Assembly: GCA_003209895.1 (NCBI GenBank)
Contig: QCOH01000001.1
Coordinates: 62,001-126,000 of the forward strand
Source: Pelagibacteraceae bacterium AG-430-I06
Lineage (GTDB): Bacteria; Pseudomonadota; Alphaproteobacteria; Pelagibacterales; Pelagibacteraceae
Direction of reading: 5' to 3'
DNA: 64,000 nucleotides
In this document: positions 8,359 through 28,319 of the stretch, in pieces
How the letters are laid out: each line of letters starts with the position of its first letter
Numbering within the stretch: the first letter of the stretch is position 1
Made by a program: the position numbers and the translations under genes
The notes under the pieces: model-generated
The model's database searches: none
What the model saw: only the letters and a program-made list of their open reading frames with translations
What the model was told of the DNA's origin: nothing

Positions 8359-9491
8359 TAAATTTTAAGTAAATTAATAGCGTATTTAAGTTGATTATCT
8401 GATTGTGTATTTATTTCAAAATTTTCACCAAGCTCTTCAATGAAAATATCTGGTTCGACCCCAATTTCTGATATTGACTTTCCAGAGGGTAAATAATATT
8501 TGGAGACCGTCAGTCTTATGCCGCCACCGTCGCTCAAAGGTATTATGGACTGAACCGAACCTTTTCCGTAAGTTTTCTCTCCCAATATAATTGCTCTTTT
8601 GTGATCTTTTAAAGCACCCGCTACTATTTCAGAAGCAGAAGCAGATCCATTATTAATTAAAACTATCAATGGTTTACCGCTAACCTTATCTCCTTTATTT
8701 GCAAAGAAACGCCTATTTTCCATTGATCTTCTACCTTTTGTTGAAACTATTTCCCCATCATCTAAAAAAAAGTCAGTTACGTTAATTGCTTTTGTTAGTA
8801 ACCCTCCAGGATTATTTCTTAAATCCAATATATATCCATGAGGTTTTTCAACTTTTTCAAAACTACTTATTTTCTTCATTAATTGATCATCACTATTTTC
8901 ATTAAAAGACTTCAATCTTAGATAACCAATCTTTTCTTTTAGAATTTTTGCTTCAACAGATTTAATTACTATGACTTCCCGCTTAATTTTTTTTACCAGT
9001 GCTTTTCTCTCTCCTTTTCTTCTAATTGTAAGTTCTATTGATGATCCGATAGGTCCTCTCATTAATTTGACCGCTTCCATAAGAGATTTACCTTGAACCT
9101 GTGTATCTCCAATTTTAACTATATAGTCCCCAGCCTTTATTCCAGCTTTGTATGCTGGCGTATCATCCATTGGAGATATAACTTTAACAACACCTGCTTC
9201 CATGCCAATCTCTATTCCCAAACCCCCAAATTTACCACGAGTATCAGTTTGAAGAGTTTTAAATAGTTCTGGATTCATGTACGCAGAGTAAGGGTCCAAA
9301 GATTGTAAAACTCCATTAATTGCCGAGTCCATTACTTCTGACTGATCAACATCATCTACGTATTCTTTTTTTATTTTTTGTAATACCTCACCAAACAGGT
9401 CTATCTTTTTGTATAAATCTACTTTTTCCTTAGCATAGGAACTTCCTATGAATAAAATAAAAATAATAACAAAATGTAATATTTTTATCAC
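8358..9491 (-). CDS. ctpA: Carboxy-terminal processing protease (S41)
   Basis: Periplasmic Ser/Lys-dyad protease of the CtpA/Prc family. From the GTG at 9491 the product is 377 residues, beginning with a signal peptide (VIKILHFVIIFILFIGSSYA). A PDZ domain follows at about 90-165 and the tail-specific protease domain after it, with the Ser in NGSASASE (about 285) and Lys in GEKTYGKG (about 310). The GTG overlaps the rsfS stop as GTGA, a coupling junction, so I prefer it to an upstream GTG at 9527 that would put charged residues before the signal peptide and overlap rsfS by 40 bases. Likely roles are cell-wall enzyme or envelope protein processing (family inference). Confidence 0.9.
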   Translation of the reverse strand: MIKILHFVIIFILFIGSSYAKEKVDLYKKIDLFGEVLQKIKKEYVDDVDQSEVMDSAINGVLQSLDPYSAYMNPELFKTLQTDTRGKFGGLGIEIGMEAGVVKVISPMDDTPAYKAGIKAGDYIVKIGDTQVQGKSLMEAVKLMRGPIGSSIELTIRRKGERKALVKKIKREVIVIKSVEAKILKEKIGYLRLKSFNENSDDQLMKKISSFEKVEKPHGYILDLRNNPGGLLTKAINVTDFFLDDGEIVSTKGRRSMENRRFFANKGDKVSGKPLIVLINNGSASASEIVAGALKDHKRAIILGEKTYGKGSVQSIIPLSDGGGIRLTVSKYYLPSGKSISEIGVEPDIFIEELGENFEINTQSDNQLKYAINLLKI

Positions 9492-25668: not shown

Positions 25669-27351
25669 ATGCAATTATCAAAAATAAACAGTTTAGTTGA
25701 ATTATATTTTAAAAAAGCACAAGAGGTCGACGGTAAAAAACCATTCTTAAAATGGTTAAAACCAAATAAAAAAACTTATAATTGGGAAGATATAACAGAA
25801 AGAATTTATAAACTTTCACACAAAATAAAATCTTTAATAAACGAGGGAGACAGATGTTTAATTCTCTCTGAGAATAGACCTTATTGGCTAATGTCAGATA
25901 TATCTATCATGAATGCCGGAGGTATATCTGTTCCGATATTTACAACTTACTCGTCAAACGACTATGAATATATTATCAATGACTGCAAACCATCACTGAT
26001 AATTGTATCAAATGATAATCAATTTAAAAAAATTAAAAACTTTTTAAATTTTCAAACTCAAAAAATTATATCATTTGAAAAAATTGAAGCGGATAGTTTA
26101 ATAATCCAAGATATTTTTGAGGAAAAAAAATTTACTAAAAATATTAATCAAAATTTAAAAAGGGGAATGCCAGCCTGTATAATTTATACTTCTGGAACTT
26201 CGGGTAACCCCAAAGGAGTTATCTTAAGTCATGGAGGTATATTAGCAAATTGTGAGGGTGCTCTAGAATTATTAAACCCATTAGTTAAAAAAAAGGACCC
26301 GGTATTTTTAACTTGGCTACCTCTTTCACATTCATATGAACATGCTGTGCAATTTATCCAAATATTACTCGGAGCTAAAGTTTTCTACGCAGAAAGTTTA
26401 GAGAAGCTTATATCAAACATGTCAATTGCAAAACCAACAATTATGACGGCTGTCCCTAGATTTTACCAAAATTTATTTAGTAAAATAAATACAAATCTAA
26501 ACAAACAAGTTGGATTTAAAAAAACCCTTATTAACAAAACAATAAATTTAGGAAAAAAACAACTGAAAAAAGAACGCCTTAATTTACGTGAAAAAATAGT
26601 AAACTTTTTTTGCCAAATTCTGGTACGGAAAAAAATTCAAAAACAGTTTGGAGGGAATTTGCAAGCTTTTGTTTCAGGGGGCGGCGCGTTAGATAAAAAT
26701 GTTGGAGAATTCTTAAATGCAGTCGGTTTACCAACACTTCAGGGCTATGGATTGACAGAAACTTCACCTGTAGTTAGTTGTAATTTACCAGGCAATATAA
26801 AAGTTGAGACAGTGGGACCGCCTTTCAAAACAAATCAAATTAAAATTGCAGAAGATGGTGAAATTTTAGTTAAAGGTGAAAATGTTATGATTGGATATTG
26901 GAATAAAGAAAAAGAAACAAAAGAAATAATTAAAAATGGATGGTTACATACTGGAGATATTGGGGAAATTGATAAAAACGGATATTTAAAAATTACTGAC
27001 AGAAAAAAAGATATAATAGTTAATCATGGTGGAGACAATATTTCTCCAAGCAAAATAGAAAATTTTGTTTGTAATAATGAGAAAATTAAACAGTGTTTAG
27101 TTTACGGTGACAAAAAAAATTATCTAGTTGCATTAATAGTTGTAGAAAAAAAAGATAAAAATGATTCAACTATAAGAAGTATTCTAGAAAATATAAATAA
27201 AAACTTATCAATTGTTGAAAAAATAAAAAAATTTAAGTTAATTGATGAAGAATTTACAATTGATAATGGATTGATGACACCAACATTAAAGTTAAAAAGA
27301 AAAAAGATTATTGAAAAATATAAACAAGATTTAGAAAAACTTTATAATTAG
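25669..27351 (+). CDS. Long-chain acyl-CoA synthetase (AMP-binding)
   Basis: ANL-superfamily ligase that activates fatty acids via acyl-adenylate. P-loop YTSGTSGNPKGV, then GYGLTETSPVVS, GWLHTGDIG and TDRKKDIIV. 560 residues, with the order and spacing of long-chain FadD/ACSL enzymes. No other start codon lies near the N-terminus, so the ATG five bases after the tRNA-Leu CCA must be used. The mRNA would have almost no leader once the tRNA is cut out. Confidence 0.9.
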   Translation: MQLSKINSLVELYFKKAQEVDGKKPFLKWLKPNKKTYNWEDITERIYKLSHKIKSLINEGDRCLILSENRPYWLMSDISIMNAGGISVPIFTTYSSNDYEYIINDCKPSLIIVSNDNQFKKIKNFLNFQTQKIISFEKIEADSLIIQDIFEEKKFTKNINQNLKRGMPACIIYTSGTSGNPKGVILSHGGILANCEGALELLNPLVKKKDPVFLTWLPLSHSYEHAVQFIQILLGAKVFYAESLEKLISNMSIAKPTIMTAVPRFYQNLFSKINTNLNKQVGFKKTLINKTINLGKKQLKKERLNLREKIVNFFCQILVRKKIQKQFGGNLQAFVSGGGALDKNVGEFLNAVGLPTLQGYGLTETSPVVSCNLPGNIKVETVGPPFKTNQIKIAEDGEILVKGENVMIGYWNKEKETKEIIKNGWLHTGDIGEIDKNGYLKITDRKKDIIVNHGGDNISPSKIENFVCNNEKIKQCLVYGDKKNYLVALIVVEKKDKNDSTIRSILENINKNLSIVEKIKKFKLIDEEFTIDNGLMTPTLKLKRKKIIEKYKQDLEKLYN

Positions 27352-27558
27352 AAATAATTTATTTTTTTTTAAAATTTAATTAAAAACGTTGGTATTGCTT
27401 GTTTTTTTAATAAAATATTTATCAACTCATAAAAAATTAATTTTGATTAATTTTTTTAAAATTTAATAACTAATTTATGTTTGACATCTTTGTTAAAAAA
27501 CTTAAAGTTAAAATTACCAAACGAATCACTTAGATTTGTTTTTAAAAAGGGAGATAAA
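27352..27558 (+). other. AT-rich non-coding stretch before the basic peptide gene
   Basis: About 200 bases, extremely AT-rich, with no reading frame of note. It ends in the putative promoter (27481-27508) and the AGGGAG ribosome site (27548-27553) of the small gene that follows. Confidence 0.6.
27481..27508 (+). promoter_or_regulatory. Candidate promoter of the basic peptide gene
   Basis: TTGACA (27481-27486), 16 bases, TAAAGT (27503-27508), which matches four of six -10 positions. It would leave a leader of roughly 45 bases that includes the strong AAGGGAG ribosome site. Confidence 0.45.
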
Positions 27559-27627
27559 ATGGCTAAAAGACGTAAAAAGAAAAAAGGAAAGAAAAAGAAA
27601 GCTAAAAGAAGAAAAAGAAGAAGATAA
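27559..27627 (+). CDS. 22-residue Lys/Arg-rich peptide
   Basis: ATG at 27559, TAA at 27625-27627. Of 22 residues, 18 are Lys or Arg; the others are Met, two Ala and one Gly (it begins MAKRRKKKKGKKKK). An AGGGAG ribosome site is placed 5 bases before the ATG, a TTGACA box is 73 bases upstream, and a very strong terminator starts 13 bases after the stop, so this looks like a dedicated, well-expressed gene. I do not recognise a family. The composition suggests binding of rRNA, DNA or another polyanion, as in the 25-residue eukaryotic/archaeal ribosomal protein L41e, but that is analogy only. Confidence 0.75.
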   Translation: MAKRRKKKKGKKKKAKRRKRRR

Positions 27628-27640
27628 GTAGTTTTCTTAA

Positions 27641-27677
27641 AACGCCCTTTCTAAACACGGAGAAAGGGCGTTTTTTA
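27641..27677. terminator. Strong intrinsic terminator between convergent genes
   Basis: A 12-base-pair perfect stem AACGCCCTTTCT/AGAAAGGGCGTT (27641-27652 with 27661-27672), 8-base loop, then TTTTTTATT on the plus strand. It ends the basic peptide transcript. On the minus strand it overlaps the carD stop codon, and only a short A/T run lies on that side, so it mainly serves the plus strand. Confidence 0.93.
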
Positions 27678-28319
27678 TTGGACTTCTAAATCCTGATTTC
27701 TGCCGAGAGCTTTATCCATTTTCCTTTTAACATCCTCGGGGGTTGTTTTAAGCACGGCCTCAAACTCACTTTGTAATCTCTCATATGCTTTTTCAAAAAG
27801 TTGTCTTTCACTATAAGATTGGTCAGCAATAGCATTGCTATTTTTATTAAGATCTTTTACGACTTCTGCAAGTTCATAAATTTTACCAGAATTAATTTTT
27901 TGTTCGTATTCTTGCGAACGCCTACTCCACATAGTTCTTTTTATTTTTGGCTTACTTTTCAAAATTGAAACACACTTATTTATTTGATTTATAGAGGATA
28001 TAGGTCTTAAATTAGATTGTTGATTTATTGGAATTGTTAGCGTCAACTTATCCTTATCAACAAAAACCTTATAAAAATTAATATGAATGTCACCAATAAC
28101 AGCTTTTTCTACAGATAAAATTTTTCCTACGCCATGTTTTGGATAAACAACATAATCATTTACATTGTAATCTTTTTTTTCTGTCGGTTGCTTTTTAATT
28201 TTTTTTATAATTACTTTTTCATCTGTTGAATTGCTTTTATTAAATTGAACAGGTTTTTCCTTAATCTTAGAGTGTTTTTTTTTCTTAACTTTTATTGCTT
28301 TCTTTTTTCTTTTTTTCAT
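27675..28319 (-). CDS. carD: CarD/CdnL-family transcription regulator
   Basis: RNA-polymerase-binding factor that stabilises open promoter complexes. The RNAP-interacting domain starts at about residue 53 (VNDYVVYPKHGVGKILSVEKAV), followed by the helical DNA-binding part (RTMWSRRSQEYEQKINSGKIYELAEVVKDL... YSERQLFEKAYERL). It has an extra N-terminal tail of about 50 residues that is strongly Lys-rich. Length 214, longer than the usual 160-170. It is followed upstream by ferredoxin and the helicase, a common alphaproteobacterial arrangement. Confidence 0.92.
   Translation of the reverse strand: MKKRKKKAIKVKKKKHSKIKEKPVQFNKSNSTDEKVIIKKIKKQPTEKKDYNVNDYVVYPKHGVGKILSVEKAVIGDIHINFYKVFVDKDKLTLTIPINQQSNLRPISSINQINKCVSILKSKPKIKRTMWSRRSQEYEQKINSGKIYELAEVVKDLNKNSNAIADQSYSERQLFEKAYERLQSEFEAVLKTTPEDVKRKMDKALGRNQDLEVQ

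Follow-up and report, generated by a model that had tools for sequence, protein, structure and literature searches.

Introduction

Sperm protamines and ScvA of Coxiella are strongly basic proteins of about 20-35 residues that are taken to bind or condense DNA. The bacterial H1-like proteins (AlgP of Pseudomonas, Hc1 and Hc2 of Chlamydia, BpH1 of Bordetella) share a low-complexity sequence rich in Lys, Ala, Pro and Thr, a length that drifts by repeats, and a repeat part free of acidic and bulky residues. In Hc2-type proteins, differences in length come from Lys-rich repeats (PMC2848022), and fragments of the KPAA-repeat tail of AlgP, which its authors likened to the H1 tail, bind DNA (PMC9239181). 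Short basic peptides are also bound to the ribosome: eL41, very basic and about 25 residues long, has a separate small gene, and bS22/mS38 is short, basic and usually unannotated.

Here we analysed a window of 64,000 nucleotides from Pelagibacteraceae bacterium AG-430-I06, in which a small gene for a polycationic peptide faces carD. No published mention of this gene was found in the openly searchable papers. The abstract and the other-motifs section of a 2009 study of SAR11 structured RNAs do not mention the region, and a small-peptide catalogue (PMC10491242) may list the peptide without a function.

Results

A small gene with its own signals encodes a polycationic peptide

The sequence-only reading had described a 22-residue ORF, 82% Lys/Arg, with expression signals of its own, and this was confirmed: MAKRRKKKKGKKKKAKRRKRRR contains 11 Lys and 7 Arg (18 of its 22 residues), and the TTGACA box, the GGGAG ribosome site and the terminator are all in place (Table 1). 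No other ORF of 18-60 codons in the window reaches 60% Lys/Arg, and 40 dinucleotide shuffles yielded none with at least 70%. We also considered a paralogue in the same genome; the candidate, a 78% match (C1:2025-2088; L002 1501-1564), was rejected as the Lys/Arg-run N-terminus of a longer ORF that continues into ordinary sequence. The terminator hairpin, which had been called one of the strongest in the window, has a predicted stability of -20.7 kcal/mol (z = -5.6) and is more stable than every shuffle, and a similar hairpin occurs in relatives; a pattern-based scan of the window region did not list it. It probably serves both the peptide gene and carD. High expression of the peptide gene, as judged from its signals, would be plausible.

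Table 1. Features of the peptide gene and its neighbours (window positions)
Feature	Position	Strand	Details
AMP-binding (acyl-CoA ligase) gene	25669-27351	+	flanks the peptide gene
Sigma-70-type promoter (predicted)	27481-27508	+	TTGACA 27481-27486, 16-nt spacer, TAAAGT 27503-27508
Stem-loop	27519-27541	+	ACGAATC...GATTTGT, 9-bp stem, 5' arm AAACGAATC; 5' end of predicted transcript
Shine-Dalgarno site	27549-27553	+	GGGAG; GGAG-type site conserved in relatives read
ORF for polycationic peptide	27559-27627	+	MAKRRKKKKGKKKKAKRRKRRR; 22 codons; start ATG at 27559; range includes the stop codon, which ends at 27627
Terminator hairpin	27639-27674		14-bp stem, between the convergent peptide gene and carD
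carD	27675-28319	-	CarD_TRCF_RID (PF02559) and CarD_C (PF21095), profile match

The gene is present at every examined carD locus of the Pelagibacteraceae

We compared carD-side DNA from 11 genus-level groups and named records, in a drawn set of genomes many of which are incomplete; a CarD search matched in 162 of 197 genomes of the family. The peptide ORF, convergent with carD, was found in 177 of the 177 Pelagibacteraceae loci that contain carD and its downstream side. These comprise 155 distinct gene copies, which encode 70 distinct peptides of 19-38 residues with 61-86% Lys/Arg. The peptides consist of K, R, A, T, G, S and P after an initial Met (Val in one case), and acidic or large hydrophobic residues are absent from all 155 copies. 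Their common layout starts with MAK[RK]RKK..., continues with a middle part of Lys and Ala and closes with an Arg-rich stretch, and most copies in g5, g7, g9 and g12 are longer (29-38 residues) and carry KKAT, KKAA or KPAKK units. In one MED817 contig (L063, L191, L208) the carD/peptide region occurs twice in inverted orientation, which probably reflects an error of assembly.

An exact-pattern scan of the genome contigs returned 80 matches, of which 72 face a carD, three lie in SAR11 loci that end before carD, and five are outside SAR11. The latter five were set aside as four Bradyrhizobium H1-like proteins and one Lys-rich Planctomycetota protein. The Bradyrhizobium proteins (L164, L166, L214, L218) are 116-124 residues long, start MAKKSKKAKKAKKA... 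and have a Pro/Ser-rich end, and the Planctomycetota protein (contig L225) is 62 residues long and reads MAKKRKKAKKAKKTTKKKATKKGKK.... No such ORF was found downstream of carD in 28 loci of other Alphaproteobacteria, outside the order. The gene pattern was absent from viruses, where a single promoter/hairpin match (L283) was discarded as unrelated sequence lacking such an ORF.

This distribution bears on whether the peptide is secreted as an antimicrobial. It is cationic, and Pelagibacter is a leading genus in a catalogue of predicted antimicrobial peptides (PMC10491242). However, it has no leader and no hydrophobic face, the adjoining genes have no transport or immunity functions, and the gene is there at every site examined, so that we regard an antimicrobial role as barely conceivable.

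A conserved promoter and hairpin precede the ORF

Promoter-like matches are no more frequent in this region than in shuffled sequence, and the evidence for the promoter is therefore its conservation, not the match itself. TTGAC lies 39-42 nt ahead of CGAATC in 146 of the 148 Pelagibacteraceae copies that have TTGAC, and at a similar spacing in a sister family of the same order (f2). At this distance, the predicted transcript opens with the hairpin.

The 5' stem-loop, which the sequence-only reading had not mentioned, has a predicted stability of -7 kcal/mol (z -1.6) in the window when folded alone. Across the family, 149 of 152 copies can form a stem of 7 or more pairs, a share that falls to about 8% with a shuffled tail. 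CGAATCA is present in 151 of the 155 distinct copies; the 3' arm reads GATTTG, with a G-U pair, in many g1 and g4 copies and GATTCG, with a G-C pair, elsewhere, and in g5, g7, g9 and g12 the stem is shifted with CGAATCA retained. We considered that the ACGAATC hairpin is instead a palindromic DNA operator, and found this less likely, since many copies keep the G-U pairing of RNA and lose perfect DNA symmetry. The simplest reading is that a hairpin at the 5' terminus would slow mRNA decay. The near invariance of the CGAATCA arm in two families goes beyond what pairing requires.

The ORF is under selection as a protein

To ask what constrains the ORF, we counted substitutions between pairs of equal-length copies differing at no more than 4 bases; the copies are related, and the counts are thus not independent. 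Codon changes were 76% synonymous, 20% Lys<->Arg and 4% other, whereas the same substitutions placed randomly on the same bases gave 29% synonymous, 28% Lys<->Arg, 40% other and 3% stops. Codon position 3 accounted for 209 of the 292 nucleotide differences. The excess of synonymous changes over the random placement is nonetheless large and indicates that the ORF encodes a protein and, judged by this pattern, it is under selection on its peptide. The proposal of a dedicated small gene is hence borne out by a frame kept at every syntenic site examined, by synonymous drift, and by the conserved promoter and terminator.

Codon choice was also unusual. AGG does not occur once among the 1029 Arg codons of the copies, 85% of the Ala codons are GCT, and AAG is used above average. 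The longest A-run averages 7.3 where 10.8 is expected, with most runs at or below 7. By comparison, A-runs of at least 8 in the longer ORFs of the window match expectation (88 vs 89), and the most basic stretch of carD has a smaller shortfall (8.5 vs 10.7 expected). A general codon bias of highly expressed genes was rejected as the cause, because the ribosomal-protein genes of the same genome show neither the GCT preference for Ala nor the avoidance of AGG. The choice of codons would instead avoid slippage on Lys runs and internal AGG resembling a ribosome site.

The transcript might instead be a small regulatory RNA made up of the 5' hairpin, a purine-rich middle and the terminator, with the ORF incidental or a by-product. 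The architecture is indeed like that of an sRNA, and the codon choice is unusual at the nucleotide level, unlike that of ribosomal-protein genes. Nevertheless, the synonymous bias (76% vs 29%) and the tolerance of Lys<->Arg changes point to the peptide, as do the conserved ribosome site and start codon, and the limits on A-runs would also be favoured by accurate translation of Lys runs. A scan against Rfam found no family matching the peptide transcript. Taken together, we consider a regulatory RNA highly improbable. The Rfam search of the window did return one match elsewhere, to the Rickettsia sRNA family Rp_sR47 (8510-8822; 67.6 bits, cut-off 60).

A longer orthologue in a sister family is H1-like

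At 15 of 15 loci of the sister family, an ORF of 80-99 residues, beginning MEELKVIFAKARKKAKKKAAPKKKRKAAKRKPAKKK..., faces carD, and the region upstream of it has the same TTGACA and a ACGAATCA...GATTC hairpin. Since position, orientation and regulatory region match, we conclude that this ORF and the Pelagibacteraceae peptide are orthologues. The longer proteins have a head of only about 11 residues, and their repeat part (MEELKVIFAKARKKAKKKAAPKKK...) is a Lys/Ala/Pro repeat that looks like the tail of a bacterial histone H1-like protein. The pattern of the head was absent from 289 genomes of the class, a sample without the sister family itself. The short form of 19-38 residues may be derived, rather than ancestral, relative to the long one.

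Searches for the 22-, 38- and 85-residue forms in Pfam (E<10) and NCBIfam gave no relevant match; profile methods are weak on such low-complexity sequence. We therefore do not assign the peptide to any curated family, and the H1-like label rests on the composition and repeat style of the longer orthologue, with the proviso that low-complexity sequences can come to resemble each other by convergence. A Lys-rich Ala/Pro/Thr repeat free of acidic residues is found in the repeat part of the sister-family proteins and in the 29-38-residue forms of g5, g7, g9 and g12, and length varies by repeat units within the Pelagibacteraceae (f1, 19-38 residues) and the sister family (80-99). The 22-residue copy of the window is only partly repeat-like, has no clear AKKK repeat and is all tail. 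It thus differs from Hc2 (165-237 residues) and AlgP (352 residues) in being short, headless and 82% Lys/Arg, with Arg concentrated towards its end, and the sister-family orthologue is the form closest to the described H1-like proteins. Protamines and ScvA resemble the peptide in size and basicity; they are Arg-dominated, while the peptide is Lys-dominated and encoded by a core gene of free-living cells.

On these grounds we favour, with moderate confidence, the reading that the peptide is a minimal H1-like disordered polycation that would coat or compact the nucleoid, with chromosomal DNA as its main ligand. The window peptide is probably a protein reduced to its essentials that coats DNA or RNA. 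Among the three roles put forward from sequence, which were a ribosome-bound peptide like L41e, a nucleoid compactor and an RNA chaperone, the nucleoid compactor fits best because the sister-family orthologue is an H1-like Lys/Ala/Pro repeat protein; the L41e-like role found no support in profile models or in the pattern of length.

We compared this reading with that of a peptide bound to the ribosome in the manner of eL41 or bS22/mS38, where a short basic helix lies within the rRNA of the small subunit. Such a peptide would agree with the size, the charge and the lack of annotation, and also with the presence of the gene at all sites examined in the family, which would hold for a core component of translation. 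bS22 and bL38 of Borrelia were unannotated until cryo-EM, and bS22 is 61% Lys/Arg (PMC10618245). However, the peptide matched neither PF05162 (eL41) nor PF08213 (COX24_C, bS22/mS38) even at E<10, while the positive controls were each recognised by their model (a 25-residue eL41 at 46.3 bits with PF05162, a 33-residue bS22 at 46.2 bits with PF08213). Likewise, a search of the PDB returned no match for the peptide, whereas bS22 found ribosomal chains. The peptide lacks the His, Leu and Gln of bS22, the longer orthologue is repeat-like, and little of the sequence is held past the start region. In a buried rRNA pocket, length and sequence would be expected to stay fixed, and the drift in length consequently argues against a fixed ribosomal site; bS22 of Borrelia varies at one residue (PMC10618245). 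A ribosomal peptide is, in our estimate, unlikely.

A further question is which polyanion would be bound. Nucleic acid binding in the cell is expected of a peptide so charged and, given its basicity, RNA would be bound no less readily than DNA. Its main partner could be RNA or polyphosphate, with the peptide serving as RNA chaperone, condensate component or counter-ion and with DNA as a minor ligand. The argument from composition is the same as for DNA, and there are precedents: the RNA-binding Hc2 represses translation (PMC2848022), and AlgP is found in association with polyphosphate granules (PMC9239181). Yet the sequence has no feature that points to RNA in particular, and the longer orthologue resembles DNA-binding tails of the H1 type. 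DNA is thus the likeliest main ligand, and we hold a predominantly RNA- or polyphosphate-directed role to be rather improbable. Binding to either nucleic acid and a place in the nucleoid are suggested by composition and orthology.

The CarD neighbour carries a basic tail

The sequence-only reading had also pointed out that the gene faces carD, whose product has a Lys-rich tail. This holds: carD is convergent, and its N-terminal tail of 49 residues (28173-28319) is 45% Lys/Arg. CarD tails in the sister family (among L106-L120) are basic and 100-143 residues long, with KKKVA repeats in two loci, and among the CarDs examined from other Alphaproteobacteria, most have a short tail.

The peptide might work together with CarD at promoters, for instance by providing the basic tail or by competing with it. 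The two genes face each other at all sites examined in the two families, and the CarD tails are basic in both, longer in the sister family. However, convergent neighbours that share a terminator may remain linked for that reason alone, and the correlation between peptide length and tail length within the family is weak (rho 0.2). We judge joint action with CarD to be very unlikely.

Discussion

We propose a model in which the gene would be driven by its own sigma-70 promoter, the mRNA would be protected by the 5' stem-loop, and transcription would end at the terminator shared with carD. The peptide would neutralise the phosphate backbone of nucleic acid, chiefly of chromosomal DNA, and might in this way assist HU in coating or compacting the nucleoid. 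SAR11 genomes encode two or three HU-family proteins each, so a compaction role is not required of the peptide. In the Pelagibacteraceae, only the charged part of a longer H1/AlgP-type protein would remain. A bolder version, which we put forward tentatively as a possibility, is that SAR11 has protamine-like chromatin, in which a separately expressed peptide of 19-38 residues coats the chromosome in growing free-living cells, an H1-like protein having shrunk to its charges.

SAR11 bacteria rank among the most abundant cells on Earth and serve as models of genome streamlining. The gene stands at every carD locus examined in the family, yet its shortness and low complexity put it beyond the profile libraries that we used, and it would thus be an overlooked core gene. 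It shows, across a whole family, how small a disordered polycation under selection can be, and its lack of AGG and paucity of long A-runs offer a natural test of how dense Lys/Arg codons are translated. If its role is to pack DNA, few known chromatin proteins would be as small, and DNA packing in such small cells could be tested with one peptide.
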